From Nitratireductor indicus C115 (GTDB lineage Bacteria; Pseudomonadota; Alphaproteobacteria; Rhizobiales; Rhizobiaceae): a stretch of DNA of 64,000 nucleotides. This document shows positions 1-6,753 of this stretch, piece after piece (positions within the stretch are counted from its first letter, which is position 1; the number at the start of each line of letters is the position of its first letter). The notes below the pieces were generated by a model that saw only the letters and a list, made by a program, of their open reading frames with translations, was not told the DNA's origin and searched no databases. The stretch lies in the NCBI RefSeq assembly GCF_000300515.1, contig NZ_AMSI01000006.1, positions 62,001 through 126,000 of the forward strand. The letters are read 5' to 3'. The position numbers and the translations under genes were made by a program.

Positions 1-415
1 ACTTGATCTCGTCGCTGGGCTGCTTTTCCGATTCCTCTTTATCATCCGGCGCTGAAAAACCGTCCCGGATCGACGCTCCGATGACTTCCGCCCAATGCGC
101 AGGTGTCTGCTCCGTCAGACCCTTTATGAAGCCTTGTCCGACATCACTCTCGGTAAACGTCCAGACGGCAAGCCAGCCGCCAAAGATGTAGATGCCGATT
201 TTGCTCTTGAAGGAACCGGCCTGCGGCGGGAGCACCAGGATTTCATATTTCAGCTTCCCGTCGAATACCTCCCTGTTGAGGGAAGCCACGATCGCAGCTG
301 TCTGCTGTGCCGTGCGAACAAAGGTTGCCAAGGGTATTTCATGGCCGGGCAGATCAAAGTGGATCGGCAGGACCGCAACCGCGCCACCCGTCTCCTGTTC
401 CGATCTTTCTGCCAT
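1..415 (-). CDS. unrecognised protein, N-terminal part (gene runs off the left edge)
   Basis: An open frame begins at an ATG at 415-413 and stays open for 138 codons to the edge, so the C-terminus is missing. It starts 21 bases after the upstream gene's stop codon on the same strand and is probably the distal gene of the methyltransferase operon. The N-terminal half has alternating hydrophobic stretches and the segment VLPPQAGSFKSKIGIYIFGG, which ends in a hydrophobic, glycine-containing run. This is followed by ESDVGQGFIKGLT and an acidic/lysine-rich tail. I have seen similar unnamed proteins in phage and island contexts but cannot assign a family or a function. Confidence 0.6.
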   Translation of the reverse strand, partial: MAERSEQETGGAVAVLPIHFDLPGHEIPLATFVRTAQQTAAIVASLNREVFDGKLKYEILVLPPQAGSFKSKIGIYIFGGWLAVWTFTESDVGQGFIKGLTEQTPAHWAEVIGASIRDGFSAPDDKEESEKQPSDEIK

Positions 416-436
416 TCTGCCCCCTTACAGCCCCGT

Positions 437-1186
437 TCAGGCGGCTTTTACCTGCCCCGCAGTCATGAGTTTCCGCCACTTCTCAAATTCATCGGGCAGA
501 ATTCCAATGAATGCACTGTCAGCCATGCATTCCGGATCATAGGTCAGGTCCAGCTGGCGGAGGACGAGCCCAAAGCGTCGGGCACTGCCTCGACCGTTGC
601 CCGCAACGCCGGTGCGCGGGCGCGACTTCCCGTTATCAAAATACAGCTTGTTTGCCGCCTTGATGATGGGCCTGCTCCCAAGGACCTGCTGCCGGCCGCC
701 AAACTGTTCGAGTATTTCCCCATGCACACTGAGGGGGTGCGCCGACTTACGCGGCGCAATCAGAAGAAAGCGCGACGCTTCACCGTGGTCTTTTACAAGC
801 TGCCAGGGGGAGCGTACCAGGTGACGGTAATAGTGGCGGTAATCAGAGCTGAGTGCGTACAGATACTCCTGCTTCGGTGACCGGTTTCCACCGGCATCCG
901 GCGGGCAAAGCCTGTCGAACCAATGCAGGGCGAGAGCACTCCACAGCCCTTTATCGCCGCTGATGGCGGCGGCGTCGAATTGCTTAAGCAGCGTATTCAG
1001 ATAGACGCCGAACATGTACCGGTCATCGAACTGTCCGGTTCCGGGTTCAATATGGAAGTCAAGCGGCGCAGACGTTTCCGGACTCTCAAGAAGGTGATAC
1101 GGTGGCGGTCCTTCTGCCCCGTCTCTGATGTAATCGGTGAACGCAGCGATCCCGGCTTCGTTAAGCTTTCTGAATTTCCCCGCCAT
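437..1186 (-). CDS. unrecognised 249-aa protein of the methyltransferase/GHKL operon
   Basis: Its ATG overlaps the stop codon of the upstream gene by one base (TAATG), which indicates translational coupling. The protein is soluble-looking, with no signal peptide or membrane segment. A conspicuous aromatic/basic stretch reads SSDYRHYYRHLVRSPWQLV at about residues 112-130, and the C-terminal half is basic (KSRPRTG, GRGSARRFG). I do not recognise a catalytic motif. Its tight linkage to a C5 methyltransferase, Vsr and a GHKL ATPase suggests it is a structural or effector part of the same defence or repair module. That role is inference only. Confidence 0.7.
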   Translation of the reverse strand: MAGKFRKLNEAGIAAFTDYIRDGAEGPPPYHLLESPETSAPLDFHIEPGTGQFDDRYMFGVYLNTLLKQFDAAAISGDKGLWSALALHWFDRLCPPDAGGNRSPKQEYLYALSSDYRHYYRHLVRSPWQLVKDHGEASRFLLIAPRKSAHPLSVHGEILEQFGGRQQVLGSRPIIKAANKLYFDNGKSRPRTGVAGNGRGSARRFGLVLRQLDLTYDPECMADSAFIGILPDEFEKWRKLMTAGQVKAA

Positions 1187-1962
1187 TAATGTTCCTCCGC
1201 AGCAGTTCTGATCCTGTCCACCAGTGACAGGTTTTCACAAAACCGCATTGCAACGTCATCAATCCAGTTTTCTTTCGAAATCTCATCGGGAAGTTCGCGC
1301 GGATCGTCTGCCGCTCCGAGTTCGTTCCGGCAGTACTCGAGCCATTCTTCCTTCCATCCAGGTTCGTCGTCCTCCTCACCCGTGTCGGACACTCTGACAA
1401 GGTCCTTGAGGACGAAACGCAAAGCTGCCGGAAGTAAAAGTCCCTGCATCATAGGACTTTCCAAAAGCTTGTGTGAAAACCCCGGAATTCGCTTGTTCAC
1501 AACAAGGACGGGGCGGTCTCCCTGCTCGATCTCAACCTTCCAGACATCGTGGCGAAGATCGCTGTAGAGTATCGGAAAGATACTGCGACGACCGTCGCTG
1601 TCGTCTTCACTTTTGGGTTTCAGACGTTCTGCCGACCCAAGCAGTTTTCCCGGCTCTGCATCATTATCGACCACCTTCAGCCGGAACAGAACGGAACCGC
1701 TCTTGTCCACTTCGCTTAGGACCAGTACATCCGGAACATTCAGCGCGTTTACAGTTCCGCAATCGAACCGCATTCCGGACGAGCGATGATACGCTTCAAC
1801 AGCAACCGTCGCGTCTCCGGGGAAATTCTGATTGTCGAGTTTCAGTGAAACTTTCGCTTTCAACGGCTCGTCGGGTGCAGTTTCAAGCATACTGATCTCG
1901 ATACATTCGCGCCCTATGCGCTTGCGGCCCGTTGAGTTAATGCGTCTCTTCGCCGTGCTCAT
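1186..1962 (-). CDS. unrecognised 258-aa protein of the methyltransferase/GHKL operon
   Basis: Start and stop both overlap neighbouring genes by one base in TAATG arrangements, so it lies inside a compact operon. The N-terminus is basic (residues 5-18 are rich in R and K). Residues 35-110 look beta-rich, with alternating hydrophobic residues. The C-terminal third is acidic, with several Trp residues (PGWKEEWLEYC, ENWIDD). No nuclease, helicase or ATPase motif is visible. It may partner the GHKL ATPase encoded immediately upstream, but this rests on gene order alone. Confidence 0.7.
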   Translation of the reverse strand: MSTAKRRINSTGRKRIGRECIEISMLETAPDEPLKAKVSLKLDNQNFPGDATVAVEAYHRSSGMRFDCGTVNALNVPDVLVLSEVDKSGSVLFRLKVVDNDAEPGKLLGSAERLKPKSEDDSDGRRSIFPILYSDLRHDVWKVEIEQGDRPVLVVNKRIPGFSHKLLESPMMQGLLLPAALRFVLKDLVRVSDTGEEDDEPGWKEEWLEYCRNELGAADDPRELPDEISKENWIDDVAMRFCENLSLVDRIRTAAEEH

Positions 1963-3782
1963 TACAAGGCCCTCGCATCCACGATCAGATCACGCACGAC
2001 ATCAAAGCCGCTGGCTTTCAGATAAAAATCCGGCCCCGTGACATCAAAATAAAGGGTATTGGGCTTGGCAGCTTTGATTTCACCGCCAGTCCTTTCAAAA
2101 ATAATCTGTTTTGATTTGCTCAGATCAAAATCGAACGGGCTGAATCTCTTGAAGGGATCAGCGCCGATCATGTCATACGCCATCCGAAGGCGTATCCGTC
2201 TTGGAAAGCTCCACTGTTGCGCTCCCGGTCCTGCAAGGATTTCAAAACCGCCATTGACCGGATTGATGCGGATTGCCGCTTCTCTTGGCGGAATCTCAGG
2301 TTTCGGCTTCTTGACGCGCTTTTTCTTTCCCTTTGAAGCCTGCGCTTTGTCGGCAAGAGAAAAGAAGTCGATCAGCGCATCCTCATCCTGGGTCTCTTTC
2401 TGGTCTGCGATCATGTTGTAGAGATCGCGCAATGACTGTCTGATCGCAGAAAGCGTTTTTCGCGGACTGTCCCAACGGGAGGTCAGCTTCTCCGCATTGG
2501 AATTCCACGCTGTGTGCGCCGGATTCTCCGCGTCACCAAGAAATTCCGCCACAATGTCATCGTGTGCAATCATGGCACCACGGGCAACGGCGCCGGTAAA
2601 ATGCCGCTCGCCCGGCAGCGTGATGGGGCCTCTGGCAAACAGGGAGAAAGGCTCTTCACCTTCGGCCAGAGCCTTTATGAAGAGATCGATGTTTCCGGTT
2701 TGCGGCGCTTTGCCTTTGGGTTTCAGCACAACCGGCACGCGAAGATGGACGAGATTACCGGCTGAGAATGCGGCCTTCATCGCTTCAATCTGCTCGGGTG
2801 ACAGATGATCGGGCAACAGCCGGGAGTCGCCAATCGTCCCCGACGCACCTGCCGCTGTTGTGGAACCCAGTGCGTCACTGATTTCCTTTACAAACGGGAA
2901 CGGAACATGCGCACCCTTTTTCTCGACGCTGGCGGCGACATCCAGAAAAGTGGATGCGCTGATCAGCGTCTCGCCGACCTCAACTTCCAGCTTCCCTGCG
3001 AGAATCGGAAAGTAATAGTTGTTCACCACGCCGGAGAGGATGGTGTCCTCGGTGATGCCATCAATAAAATAGGGGATAATAATACTGAGGCCCGGCTGGC
3101 TGCTGCGTTCCACACCGAACAGCGTTCGGAAGGCTTCAACCGCATGGGGATCATTCACGGGCAGCTGGAAGTTGAGGCCGTTTCCCGATCGCCCCTCAAA
3201 CCAGAAACCGTGCGCGGGATAGTAGACATTTCCGATTGAGTGATTTGCCAGCACGGCCTGTCCCATGACGGACGGGCTATTCTCTCCGGCACGAACGGTC
3301 GCCCCGAAGAAAGATCGAACGCGCGATGAAGAGGAATAGACAAGCTTACCCAGCCCCCACCTGCCGCCTTTCTGACCGGACTTTTCCGACTCCCCGACAG
3401 CGCGCCAGAAATTGTCGAAGTTATCCTTGTCAGGTTCTTCAAAGCTGCCGGTCAGCCCTTTCGTATTATAATCCTCGATTACCAGAACACGTATTGCGCC
3501 CTCTTCATAGTCGGGGCGCTTGATTCCGCATGCATCAAGGTGCGGCTGAAGACCGTTGAAGTATTTCGCAAGCTCGGCAGTTTCAATAGAGTTCAGCGTT
3601 TTCAGACTGAAGCGGACCTTGACGGAACCGGCTCCGTTACCCGCATCGGAAGAGTTTTGTATGACTTCCCTGACGAGCGCTTCAGCCAGACCGACATCAT
3701 CGTTGTTGAACTGATCCCTCTGCGTTACGCCAATCCGGACGCTTGAGGGGTCCGCTTTGTTGAATTCCCAGTAACCCGCCAT
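1962..3782 (-). CDS. GHKL-type (MutL/MORC-like) ATPase, 606 aa
   Basis: The N-terminal domain carries the GHKL ATP-binding motifs. Motif N1 is EVIQNSSDAG, with Asn43 and Asp46 placed to bind Mg and adenine. A variant N2 motif at residues 104-111 is D-x-x-T-K-G-L-T. The glycine-rich lid at about 139-147 reads GGRWGLGKL. The rest (about 200-606) resembles no MutL or Hsp90 C-terminus I know and contains a Lys-rich linker near residue 480. GHKL ATPases of this kind are known next to C5 methylases in restriction-like loci (the prokaryotic MORC/MutL group). Here the gene follows dcm, vsr and a small gene, with GGAAG eight bases before the ATG. I infer an ATP-driven clamp or switch acting on DNA. 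The substrate is unknown. Confidence 0.8.
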   Translation of the reverse strand: MAGYWEFNKADPSSVRIGVTQRDQFNNDDVGLAEALVREVIQNSSDAGNGAGSVKVRFSLKTLNSIETAELAKYFNGLQPHLDACGIKRPDYEEGAIRVLVIEDYNTKGLTGSFEEPDKDNFDNFWRAVGESEKSGQKGGRWGLGKLVYSSSSRVRSFFGATVRAGENSPSVMGQAVLANHSIGNVYYPAHGFWFEGRSGNGLNFQLPVNDPHAVEAFRTLFGVERSSQPGLSIIIPYFIDGITEDTILSGVVNNYYFPILAGKLEVEVGETLISASTFLDVAASVEKKGAHVPFPFVKEISDALGSTTAAGASGTIGDSRLLPDHLSPEQIEAMKAAFSAGNLVHLRVPVVLKPKGKAPQTGNIDLFIKALAEGEEPFSLFARGPITLPGERHFTGAVARGAMIAHDDIVAEFLGDAENPAHTAWNSNAEKLTSRWDSPRKTLSAIRQSLRDLYNMIADQKETQDEDALIDFFSLADKAQASKGKKKRVKKPKPEIPPREAAIRINPVNGGFEILAGPGAQQWSFPRRIRLRMAYDMIGADPFKRFSPFDFDLSKSKQIIFERTGGEIKAAKPNTLYFDVTGPDFYLKASGFDVVRDLIVDARAL

Positions 3783-3784
3783 CG

Positions 3785-4012
3785 TTAGTCTTCCAATCTG
3801 AAATCAGTGTCCTTTCCGCCGGAGTCGCCAAGGAACCTGGCTTTTGCGGAATCCACTTCCTTTTGCAGTGCCCGAACGATCTTCCGGGCATCATCTTCGG
3901 AATACTCATAGGAGTTCTTGTTTGCCAGGTTGCCGATCAGCCGGATATCCTTGATCGCACGGTTGACGCGCGCCTCGGCCAGATCGATGAACTTTTTTCG
4001 TTTGTCGCGCAT
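3785..4012 (-). CDS. 75-aa conserved-type small protein between vsr and the GHKL ATPase
   Basis: The frame is open back to 4081, but the best start is the ATG at 4012, which has a strong AAGGAG eight bases upstream. The longer version has no ribosome-binding site. The product is highly charged, with a predicted helical segment (FIDLAEARVNRAIKDIRLIG) followed by residues such as NSYEYSEDDARKIVRAL and an acidic tail. It ends two bases before the start of the ATPase gene. Small proteins of this look recur beside such ATPases, so it may be a dedicated partner or DNA-binding adaptor. The function is not known. Confidence 0.72.
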   Translation of the reverse strand: MRDKRKKFIDLAEARVNRAIKDIRLIGNLANKNSYEYSEDDARKIVRALQKEVDSAKARFLGDSGGKDTDFRLED

Positions 4013-4110
4013 ATACAGACTCCTTTTCGCCTCCATATCGTGCATATTTGCGATATGTGAGTCAATAAGAGGTTTGTACATTTATAAAATGTACGTGATA
4101 TGTGTGCGAT

Positions 4111-4539
4111 CTATGGGCGACCTTCCGGGCCAAGAAGCTGATTTTTAACGACATTCAGGACCACCTCCGGATCGGACTTGAGCTCACACTCCCACACGAT
4201 CAGCACCCTCCACCCTGCGCGTTCCAGTTCGATCGTCTTCTGCCTGTCGCGCTCAACAGTGCGCCGGAATTTCTCCTGCCAGAACCCGGCTCGGGTTTTT
4301 GGTGTTGTCGCACCGGCACAACCTTCGTGCCGGTGCCAAAAGCAGCCGTGAACAAAGATGACGGTCCGGTGTTTCCGGAGGACGATATCCGGTTTTCCTG
4401 GCAGGCCTGATACGTGAAGACGGAACCGAAAACCCGCGCTGTGAAGCAGCCTTCGCAGGAGCAGTTCCGGCTGTGTGTCCTTGCCCCGGATTCGGGACAT
4501 GTTCCAGCTTCTGTGCTCCTTTGATATCCGGTCGGTCAC
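4111..4539 (-). CDS. vsr: very short patch repair (Vsr-type) endonuclease
   Basis: The 142-aa product has the usual Vsr length. It shows the family hallmarks in order: the N-terminal MSRIRGKDTQPELLLRRLL helix, the catalytic segment GLPGKPDIV with the metal-binding Asp, and the FVHGCFWHRH core carrying the conserved His and zinc-binding residues. These are followed by a C-terminal FWQEKF-R-ERD stretch. Vsr nicks T:G mismatches that arise by deamination of 5-methylcytosine at Dcm sites. The start overlaps the methyltransferase stop in an ATGA, as expected for a coupled pair. In this operon it could also act as the cleaving component of a restriction-like module, which would be unusual. Confidence 0.93.
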   Translation of the reverse strand: MTDRISKEHRSWNMSRIRGKDTQPELLLRRLLHSAGFRFRLHVSGLPGKPDIVLRKHRTVIFVHGCFWHRHEGCAGATTPKTRAGFWQEKFRRTVERDRQKTIELERAGWRVLIVWECELKSDPEVVLNVVKNQLLGPEGRP

Positions 4540-6092
4540 GCGGCTCCGTCTTTCATAGCGTCCAGGACCTCCGCGATAATCGCCGCAATCTGCCGCGCCA
4601 GATAAGGAGGCACGGCGTTACCGACCTGATGATACTGAGCAGTGCGCGGTCCCTGGAATTTGTAGTTATCCGGGAATGTCTGGAGGCGTGCCGCCTCCCT
4701 GACCGTTAGACTCCGGCACTGTGCGGGATCGTAATGAATGAAATAGTGCCCGTCCTTGGAAATGTGGGAGGTAATTGTTGTGGAGGGCTGCTCCGGCAAC
4801 TGAACACGGAACCGGTCCGAAAACATCTTCCCCTCGCGTCCCAGTGCGACGTTGCCGTGTTCAGGCAGCAGGCTTTCCGGAAAATCCACAAGCTTGGGGC
4901 TTCTGCCGGTAATCGATGCAAACGATGATGCAAAAGCGTAACGGCGAAGGTCGGAAGCCATGTGGCCGCGCGATTCGTGGCCGTCCAGAAAATCGAGATG
5001 CGGATCATGAATGCTGTCGGCAACATCATGTCCCGCAGAAGGTTTGGCCGGATAGCGGGTTGACCGGCGATTAAGTTTTTGAAGCGGCCGCCCCAGATCA
5101 ATGCTCATCATATCGATAAGATCACCGGCATATTCGTGACCGTTCAACTCCAGCCTGACGGCCGCCGGATCGATGCCGGCGATTTCGTTCCGCCATGCGG
5201 TCAGGGAATCCCCGCCCTTTGAAAGGCCGCTCCGGATTGCCGGGAGATTACCGATTGTCTGCCTGAGGGTCGGCGACTTGCGGGGCTTCAGCCTGCCGGG
5301 CACCACCCTGATGTCCTTGCGAACGCCGACAATGAACATGCGGTGCCGCGCCTGTGGCACTCCGTAGTCCTCGGCACGGACAAGAAACAGCCGTGGTTCG
5401 GCTTCCAGCCCCGGAAGTTCATCCTGGGACAGCGAATAAAGCCGATAGCCAAGACCATTTGACGTACTTCCCAGTGCCGCCTTGGGACTGGTGAGATCGG
5501 CAAGAATCCGGTTGATTACCAGTTCGCCCTTCACCTTTGCGGACAGAAGCCCTTTAACGTTCTCCATCACGAAAACCGGCGGTGCATGATCGATGATGAT
5601 CTGAAGGTACTCCCGGTACAAAAAGTGCCGGATATCCTTCTCGAATTCAGGGTCACCCATCATCCGGGACCGCCCGACAAGCGAATAAGCCTGGCACGGC
5701 GGACCGCCGACGAGCGCCCATCTTGTTTCCGATTTCAGACGCTCGGAGATCAGCTTCCGGACGGTTTCGTGATTTTGCGGGCCGAGAGAGATCTGCAAAG
5801 CGGACCGGTCGGCATGTGCCCTGTTCTCCGGATAGAGATCGTAAAGTTCCTCAAGTGGGATTTCCCCCCGAAGGTAGCGGTAGTAGTCCTCCGGAAACTC
5901 TCCTCTTGGAAAGCTCCTGAGGAAGTGACGCAAATGCAGAGTTTGGAACGAGAAACGGTCCTGTTCAATCGAGGCTGCGCTTCTGAACCGCGGGTTGGCT
6001 TTGCCGTCGTCTAGAGAACAAAAACCTTCGCCGAGCCCGCCAGGACCAGCAAAGACATCGACAACCGGGTATGTTGCGGCGGTGTCAGTCAT
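4536..6092 (-). CDS. dcm: DNA (cytosine-5) methyltransferase
   Basis: A C5 methyltransferase of 518 aa from the chosen start. Motif I is VDVFAGPGGLGEGF. Motif IV is GGPPCQAYSLVGR, with catalytic Cys at about residue 133. Motif VI is ENVKG, motif VIII is QARHRMFIVG, and motif X is VGNAVPP near the C-terminus. A target-recognition region of about 150 residues lies between motifs VIII and X. The frame extends upstream to 6152, but the ATG at 6092 overlaps the Phd-like stop codon by eight bases and gives the expected short N-terminus. It is the methylating half of this island. The target sequence cannot be read from the sequence. Confidence 0.93.
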   Translation of the reverse strand: MTDTAATYPVVDVFAGPGGLGEGFCSLDDGKANPRFRSAASIEQDRFSFQTLHLRHFLRSFPRGEFPEDYYRYLRGEIPLEELYDLYPENRAHADRSALQISLGPQNHETVRKLISERLKSETRWALVGGPPCQAYSLVGRSRMMGDPEFEKDIRHFLYREYLQIIIDHAPPVFVMENVKGLLSAKVKGELVINRILADLTSPKAALGSTSNGLGYRLYSLSQDELPGLEAEPRLFLVRAEDYGVPQARHRMFIVGVRKDIRVVPGRLKPRKSPTLRQTIGNLPAIRSGLSKGGDSLTAWRNEIAGIDPAAVRLELNGHEYAGDLIDMMSIDLGRPLQKLNRRSTRYPAKPSAGHDVADSIHDPHLDFLDGHESRGHMASDLRRYAFASSFASITGRSPKLVDFPESLLPEHGNVALGREGKMFSDRFRVQLPEQPSTTITSHISKDGHYFIHYDPAQCRSLTVREAARLQTFPDNYKFQGPRTAQYHQVGNAVPPYLARQIAAIIAEVLDAMKDGAA

Positions 6093-6267
6093 GGTTGTCG
6101 CCTGCATTCCGTTCCGGGGCTTCGGTGGACAGACGCTTATAGTCTTCAACACTCATGACTATGACAACCGGACGTCCGTGCTTTTCAATAGAGACCGGCT
6201 CCTGCCGAGCGGTATCAATAAGAAATCCGAAGCGGTTTTTCGCTTCGCGAGCCGACATTGACTTCAT
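6085..6267 (-). CDS. short Phd/YefM-family antitoxin-like DNA-binding protein, no toxin beside it
   Basis: Sixty residues starting MKSMSAREAKNRFGFLIDTA, followed by PVSIEKHGRPVVIVMSVEDY. This is the complete N-terminal DNA-binding fold of Phd/YefM antitoxins. The C-terminal toxin-neutralising helix is nearly absent, since only about 14 residues follow the core. No RelE, Doc or other toxin gene is adjacent. It is the first gene of the methyltransferase operon and overlaps dcm by eight bases. I infer that it autoregulates the operon in the way that controller (C) proteins do in restriction-modification loci. A start at the second ATG (6258) is also possible. Confidence 0.8.
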   Translation of the reverse strand: MKSMSAREAKNRFGFLIDTARQEPVSIEKHGRPVVIVMSVEDYKRLSTEAPERNAGDNHD

Positions 6268-6753
6268 GCAGGTCTGATCCAAAAGAGCTATTATGGCTAT
6301 TGTGTACTGGCAGACTGTCCGGCGCAACGTGTTCGAGAGATTCCATCCCCAACAAGATGGCGCGCATCCAACCCGTGCAGCGTCGGCCATGGGAGTATGG
6401 GACAGCAGGAATGCTCCCAACGGGCAGCGGAACGCCCTTTGGTCGATGGGGTGCGGGAGCGTTGAAGACTGCCTTGTGAGTGATCAAACGGCGTGCGACG
6501 CCGCCCCACTATTGATAGTCTTGTCGCATCATTAAATGTCCTGCAAGAGCTCGAAGTGTGAATTCGCGCTTGCCGAACGAACTTCTAAACAGGTGTCGAA
6601 CCCGGCCGTTCCCGAGGGCACGAAAACCCTCGATCCGCTCCCCAGAATATCGGCGCGAGTGACTAATCGAGATAGGTCAACTATGCTGTCTCAAGGGCAC
6701 GATAGTGTCCAAAAAGGCAAAATACCGTGGCAATCGACACCGGGAGGAGCTTC
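6268..6753. other. 486-bp gap at the island's right edge, no convincing gene
   Basis: Several short frames cross this stretch, but none has a ribosome-binding site or a recognisable product. On the minus strand a possible promoter for the methyltransferase operon (TTGCGC, 17 bases, CACAAT) lies about 45-75 bases upstream of the Phd-like start. It overlaps an ATAGC direct repeat that could bind the Phd-like protein. The stretch is the likely boundary between the accessory island and the MNIO operon. No bufferin-precursor gene could be read in any frame. Confidence 0.5.

Follow-up and report, generated by a model that had tools for sequence, protein, structure and literature searches.

Can methylation protect DNA from a MORC-like ATPase where no restriction enzyme is recognised? 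The question is raised by an operon at the left end of a 64,000-nucleotide stretch of the Nitratireductor indicus C115 genome (the window, bases 62001–126000 of contig C6 in a 4.99-Mb genome). A sequence-only reading had described eight same-strand genes, several of them overlapping, that open with a Phd-like gene, and had proposed a new methylation-guided defence module. The observation is real. Eight minus-strand genes fill the first 6.3 kb in the order phd, C5 cytosine methylase (C5), vsr, a gene for 75 amino acids (aa), GHKL ATPase, p258, p249 and the start of a 349-aa gene, and overlaps between neighbours are 8, 4, 1 and 1 bases (Table 1). The operon is a divergent relative of the candidate system PDC-M33 with a paraMORC2-type ATPase, is linked to methylation and is borne by a transposon. 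The explanation we favour, to which we give about even credence, is a 5-methylcytosine-guided restriction-like system in which a separately controlled ATPase trio would be the effector and missing 5-methylcytosine the trigger.

A conserved trio beside C5 methylases

The GHKL ATPase, p258 and p249 form a conserved trio, adjacent and in fixed order, at 13 intact loci: the window, seven further loci from searches with p249, three loci found by scanning contigs with the ATPase (Puniceibacterium L004, Ruegeria L005 and Oricola L006), a plasmid (L016) and a contig from a viral collection (L032). L004, L005 and L006 all carry C5–vsr–75-aa gene–GHKL–p258–p249. Searches with p249 identified 5 of 199 family genomes, at least 5 of 398 phylum genomes and at least 5 of 385 class genomes, the genome of the window being included each time and only some first-look candidates being scored in the latter two. 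Combined, they gave 11 genomes, three of which were kept out of the intact counts: L023 has a truncated GHKL gene, and L015 and L030 have p249-like fragments and no trio. Among phage records, tblastn gave zero matches for p249 (E 1e-5) and for p258 or the ATPase (E 1e-3); among viral contigs, the p249 alignment found none and the GHKL alignment one, of 12.7 kb.

C5 lies near the trio in 10 of the 13 loci; in L031 and L032 the contig ends within the module or shortly ahead of it, which removes the upstream side. C5 matches occur in 40 of 96 class genomes, so chance presence within 18 kb should be rare. The module recurs together with C5 methylases, and in its window form a restriction nuclease is recognised neither within the operon nor next to it. 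The sequence-only reading had allowed that homologues might turn up mostly apart from a methylase and an ATPase; they stand beside the ATPase, in most cases with a methylase as well. Of the three unrecognised genes that it placed in the module, p258 and p249 are conserved, and the third, of 349 aa, is not found in the relatives scanned.

A sister form in bacteria and haloarchaea

A second arrangement, GHKL–middle protein–DUF6339-type protein, is intact at eight loci. Searches with the 75-aa protein led to L053–L055, where 75-aa gene–GHKL–p276–DUF6339 stands beside C5 and Vsr, and a search for DUF6339 among 398 phylum genomes identified three, all of which have the sister trio and C5. A plasmid search with the ATPase identified two haloarchaeal plasmids (L074, L075) that carry GHKL and C5. 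Their middle protein, of 356 aa, is unmatched by PDC-M33B; their third protein is of the DUF6339 type, as tested in L074, to which the L075 counterpart is 89% identical. All eight sister loci have C5, two of them being these related archaeal plasmids. One sister locus (L080:7976-11918) has two C5-type methylase frames, of 341 and 740 aa, and Vsr upstream of the trio.

PADLOC names the bacterial sister proteins PDC-M33A, B and C (tested in L053 and L081). The ExxxH motif is common to the ATPases of both forms. Profile comparison of p258 with p276 gave E 2e-4 at probability 44, and of p249 with DUF6339 E 0.02 at probability 2. Kinship of the two trios is therefore supported by gene order and not proven by sequence. 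To call the module undescribed, as had been done, was too strong: according to the available text of PMC2292703, paraMORC ATPases in restriction loci were known in 2008, and PADLOC lists the sister trio.

The trio proteins

The assignment of the ATPase holds. Pfam gave no match even at E 1, and PADLOC PDC-M33A matches at 6.2e-32, with its best stretch over residues 33–289. Residues E39, N43, D46, G109, G140, G143 and G145, which we take to have the roles usual for GHKL motifs, are kept in 18 of 18 aligned rows, and D104 in 17. ExxxH (E419, H423) is also kept in all 18 rows; it is given as a mark of paraMORC2 in the available text of Iyer 2008 (PMC2292703). The GHKL motifs together with ExxxH place the ATPase, as judged from its sequence, in the paraMORC2 type. 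Comparison with solved structures by sequence returned one match, at E 0.62, taken as chance.

For p258 and p249, the PADLOC, Pfam and NCBIfam models give nothing at E 1. The p258 model (pLDDT 78, pTM 0.52) shows an Ig/FN3-like sandwich with a helical tail, and a fold search found nothing beyond the common Ig-like sandwich. Its invariant residues are W and P, which suggests an adaptor. The AlphaFold2 model of p249 (pLDDT 87) is mostly helical, and neither the PDB nor the BFVD viral models gave it a confident match, which is no proof of a new fold. R121, H122, E160, Q161, Y182, D184, R204 and D217 of p249 are invariant or nearly so in 13 rows, and these conserved residues could form a site. Neither p258 nor p249 could be assigned to a nuclease family.

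A small gene behind a conserved palindrome

The 75-aa gene heading the trio behind a kept palindrome is new here. An upstream region of its own separates the gene from vsr and contains the palindrome ACATTTnnnAAATGT, which has this one place in the genome; ACATTTNNNAAATGT likewise has a single occurrence there. An alternative 98-aa frame of the gene has a start that is not conserved. Thirteen trio loci have the 75-aa gene and an upstream stretch that could be scored, and in 11 of them the palindrome scores 10/12 or better. With the window left out as the source of the pattern, 10 of 12 loci score at least 10/12, at doublet-shuffle frequencies of 0.022 or less, to be read as a guide. As controls, four tested loci with the 75-aa gene ahead of other genes score 8 or 9, at frequencies above 0.5; seven trio loci without the 75-aa gene give frequencies of 0.13 or more; and among 12 stretches ahead of C5, or in three cases ahead of phd, one, L082, falls below 0.05.

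The palindrome is a probable operator, and the 75-aa protein is probably a dimeric controller. The palindrome also points to separate timing of effector and methylase, like that in restriction systems with C proteins.

The 75-aa family was found in 17 of 385 class genomes. At L058–L067 it also stands ahead of other genes, among them those for 827–829-aa proteins (L060, L061, L063; the L060 protein, which was tested, has no Pfam match at 0.01), a locus with a weak GHKL match plus E2/E1/JAB (L062), a GHKL gene (L064) and a GmrSD-type gene (L059).

Methylase, Vsr and EcoRII-type genes at the trio loci

Across the 21 intact loci of both forms, C5 is present in 18, Vsr in 15 and EcoRII-C in five, in counts that draw in part on profiles built from some of these loci's own genes. 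None of the relatives had been picked up by searching with a methylase. EcoRII-C was matched by Pfam in L012 and L014 and by BLAST in L082 and, more weakly, in L054, and is an 80-aa remnant in L029; the C5 frames of these five loci are 376–439 aa. Long C5 frames (517–564 aa) occur in the window, L004–L006, L022, L024, L053 and L055, and in this survey an EcoRII-type nuclease is absent from all eight. L016, L080, L081, L074 and L075 have C5 frames of 341–429 aa, with the 740-aa frame also in L080, and no EcoRII-C. The remnant (L029:11730-11972) lies beside C5 and Vsr, and that locus has apparently lost the restriction enzyme but kept an open trio.

Vsr accompanies C5 in 14 of the 18 C5-bearing loci, and in the stretches examined no Vsr match was found in the other four (L016, L081, L074, L075). 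Vsr therefore looks dispensable. In the haloarchaeal plasmid L074, a gene for an HhH-GPD base-excision glycosylase (L074:2921-3556) directly follows C5 and perhaps stands in place of Vsr. With four C5 loci that show no Vsr, and with this glycosylase, the simplest reading is that Vsr probably serves the methylase in repair. Vsr as the cutter, which the sequence-only reading had entertained, is disfavoured by the same four loci and by the five relatives that have an EcoRII-type gene (one a remnant) as well as Vsr.

Gene calls, neighbours and the transposon

Table 1. Features of the operon region, in window coordinates
Feature	Position	Strand	Basis or remark
Phd/YefM-like protein, 60 aa, first gene	6085..6267	minus	Pfam PF02604 E 2e-12
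C5 cytosine methylase, about 518 aa, long form	4536..6092	minus	PF00145 E 6e-43; PADLOC DrmMII 5e-86
Vsr mismatch endonuclease, 142 aa	4111..4539	minus	TIGR00632 E 1e-42
Palindrome ACATTTTATAAATGT, probable operator	4078..4092	minus	65 bases ahead of 75-aa gene
75-aa protein, heads trio	3785..4012	minus	54–91% identity to 12 other trio loci
paraMORC2-type GHKL ATPase, 606 aa (predicted)	1962..3782	minus	GHKL motifs, ExxxH, PDC-M33A
p258, second trio protein	1186..1962	minus	Ig/FN3-like sandwich (residues 13–118) and helical tail
p249, third trio protein	437..1186	minus	mostly helical; alignment and AlphaFold2
349-aa gene start, crosses window edge	2..415	minus	full gene L002:17366-18415; flanking gene, outside the conserved set
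Right terminal inverted repeat, 23 bp	6717..6739	minus	identical copy, inverted, at L002:5448-5470

Among the operon proteins, only those of phd, C5 and vsr receive a name from Pfam or NCBIfam, if weak sub-threshold NCBIfam matches are set aside. The gene after phd is C5 and not a toxin, and the Phd-like protein is probably an operon regulator. Phd is present 5' of C5 in L004 and L005 and was not found in L006; a BLAST search with it over eight loci gave matches in L004 and L005 only. The C5 open frame begins at 6152, and the start was set at 6092 from the equivalent start place in relatives. The methylase is the sole C5 match in its own genome, has a large insertion after what we take to be motif I, and was matched in PADLOC by many type II methylases besides DrmMII. 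Vsr has the PD and HGCFWH blocks, presumably catalytic, in an alignment of 7 Vsr proteins.

The 349-aa gene was considered as the missing nuclease and dropped. BLAST found it neither in the three nearest relatives nor in further loci scanned, and its one plasmid homologue lies away from this trio, on a 12-kb plasmid with its own Vsr, C5 and endonuclease genes. Its protein has a weak sub-threshold NCBIfam phage-protein match. It had also been foreseen that an ordinary restriction enzyme might lie just beyond the left edge; none is recognised there. Seven proteins at or beyond that edge were tested (the 349-aa protein, a SIR2-STAND protein, a metallophosphatase and TnsA-, TnsB-, TnsC- and TniQ-like proteins), and none matches a restriction enzyme. 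The operon and these seven proteins thus contain no recognised restriction-enzyme family, a search that does not cover an enzyme of unknown type or one elsewhere in the genome.

The operon region is cargo of a Tn7-like transposon of 19,292 bp (C6:49448-68739; L002:5448 to window 6739). The element is bounded by the 23-bp terminal inverted repeats and by a 5-bp direct repeat, CCGGG, at both ends (window 6740-6744 and L002:5443-5447). In two other genomes of the genus the flank matches end 125 and 74 bases apart, versus about 19.4 kb here. TnsA- (below the Pfam cut-off), TnsB-, TniB/TnsC- and TniQ-like genes lie left of the window. A 1070-aa SIR2–nSTAND–TPR–cold-shock-domain protein (L002:14028-17240) adjoins the module and is probably a separate defence gene, and a calcineurin-like phosphatase with a PADLOC PDC-S10 match (L002:13104-13874) also lies inside the transposon.

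Other genes accompany the trio elsewhere. In Ruegeria, a TIR-domain gene and a reverse transcriptase gene stand behind the module (L005:13429-16224). In L013, a DUF3644 / PADLOC PDC-S19 gene lies directly behind p249 (L013:7789-8835). Beside C5 in Oricola (L006:3589-7122) are a 722-aa protein, which gives two GHKL-type matches, and its 454-aa partner, which has no Pfam match at 0.01; they are perhaps the HK-like/RR-like pair of PMC8011034.

Interpretation and rival explanations

In the restriction-like system that we favour, the C5 methylase would place 5-methylcytosine on host sites as a self mark, and Vsr would repair the T:G mismatches arising from methylcytosine. The 75-aa protein would bind the palindrome ahead of its own gene and control the trio apart from the methylase. 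The ATPase, probably a MutL/MORC-like ATP-driven clamp, would act with p258 (Ig-like adaptor) and p249 (helical) on unmarked DNA and stop it by cutting or compaction. What the data show is the gene set with its recurrence and its association with C5, the conserved ATPase motifs and palindrome, C5 loci without Vsr, and the transposon; from these we infer defence, the sensing of missing methylation and what the 75-aa protein, p258, p249 and Vsr each do. We prefer this reading because the trio is adjacent and ordered in 13 loci, with C5 in 10 of these and in every sister locus, because eight long-C5 loci show no EcoRII-type nuclease and the palindrome stands ahead of the trio, and because the operon is mobile-element cargo beside a SIR2-STAND gene and the sister trio is a PADLOC candidate. 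A bolder version, distinctly unlikely in our judgement, would be restriction free of any nuclease: the MORC-like clamp, Ig-like adaptor and helical protein would load on DNA lacking methylcytosine and silence it by compaction, as a prokaryotic counterpart of MORC silencing, with the small controller restraining them until host DNA carries the mark of the methylase.

Several observations weigh against the restriction-like reading. No nuclease family is recognised in the ATPase, p258 or p249. Five loci (L012, L014, L054, L082 and the remnant-bearing L029) also have an EcoRII-C-type gene, so the trio is not a replacement there. At L013, the 18 kb retrieved contain the trio but no C5. Two extra genes separate Vsr from GHKL in L031; of these, the one that was tested matches DUF5655 and, below threshold, the nuclease NucS_C. 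Not every locus counts as independent, since L004 and L005 are closely related to the window; this kinship also touches the palindrome frequencies, and the pattern itself was picked after the sequences had been read. L055 and L082 score 9 only (frequencies 0.36 and 0.10). The PDC- candidates of PADLOC are themselves predictions.

The EcoRII-type genes that count against replacement would suit a trio that is a second line and not the restriction activity itself: it would stand guard over a methylase-based locus and provoke dormancy or death once a phage breaks or bypasses it. The trio's own promoter element would fit this too, as would an R-x4-H string in the window p249 (R117..H122), which we take to be a HEPN-like lead. 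Yet the eight long-C5 loci show nothing of EcoRII type that could be guarded, only 7 of 14 rows retain R117, and neither Pfam nor fold search gave a HEPN match, so a HEPN identity for p249 is not supported; we regard the second line as rather unlikely. The separate promoter element is shared as an argument by a further alternative, an addiction module in which methylase and Phd would be protective, the trio would damage cells that have lost the element, and phage defence would be a by-product. The Phd-like first gene and transposon carriage are consistent with it. But Phd matches are confined to L004 and L005 among the eight loci, and no toxin family is recognised in the trio, which leaves addiction very doubtful.

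The frequent company of Vsr and C5 would instead suit a repair unit, unrelated to phage, with the GHKL protein as a private MutL partner of Vsr at methylated cytosines. A MutL–Vsr parallel is drawn in the available text of Iyer 2008 (PMC2292703). This is highly doubtful: the trio occurs without a Vsr match in the four C5 loci named above, and p249 is patchy (the class count, a lower bound). The L074 glycosylase also speaks against it, although it can be read as a swapped repair partner. The restriction-like system remains the reading we prefer.

Comparison with known systems

The window element has the C5 methylase (PF00145) of a type II restriction–modification system. With EcoRII/Dcm-type systems accompanied by Vsr it shares C5 and Vsr, and some relatives have an EcoRII-C enzyme, but the window element has no recognised restriction enzyme. 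It does not correspond to a very-short-patch repair set (Dcm–Vsr–MutL) either, given the missing Vsr match in 4 of 18 loci with trio and C5. DISARM consists of the DrmA helicase, DrmB and DrmC with a DrmM methylase; only the DrmMII-like C5 is shared, and DrmA, DrmB and DrmC were unmatched in the module or the flanking genes tested.

Type II systems with C proteins also have a small protein just upstream of the defence genes and a palindrome in its own promoter region. RptR, a 79-aa regulator described as controlling type I systems in the available text of PMC12255303, is similar to the 75-aa protein in size, position and promoter palindrome, but its palindrome is TAGCTA, not that of the window. 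The 75-aa profile found neither an RptR chain nor a C-protein chain among PDB sequences, and we draw the comparison as an analogy, with kinship not established by sequence. VcSduA, a GHKL–Shedu fusion (paraMORC3) whose GHKL ATPase is needed for phage defence according to the available text of PMC12137116, shares the ATPase; its nuclease is fused, whereas none is recognised in the window operon.

The paraMORC2 loci are closer, with the same GHKL motifs, ExxxH and neighbourhood of cytosine methylase and Vsr, as given in the text sections of PMC2292703. They differ in the superfamily II helicase or novel restriction endonuclease described there, neither of which is recognised in the window element, and those sections do not name p258, p249, the 75-aa gene or the palindrome. 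PDC-M33 has the same three-gene order, ATPase family and association with C5 and often Vsr. It differs in that p258 is unmatched by PDC-M33B (at E 1, and at 0.1 for three relatives) and p249 by PDC-M33C/DUF6339 (PADLOC and Pfam at E 1; three relatives in PADLOC at 0.1). Our literature search found no paper naming PDC-M33 or DUF6339. These likenesses and differences suggest that PDC-M33, known so far from its listing in a catalogue, is one member of a wider class. That class would comprise two forms or more and be spread over bacteria and, through the sister form, haloarchaea. Bacterial MORC relatives are said in the available text of PMC8011034 to be poorly understood, and an operon as small as this one is a convenient setting for finding out how MORC-like ATPases act on DNA.

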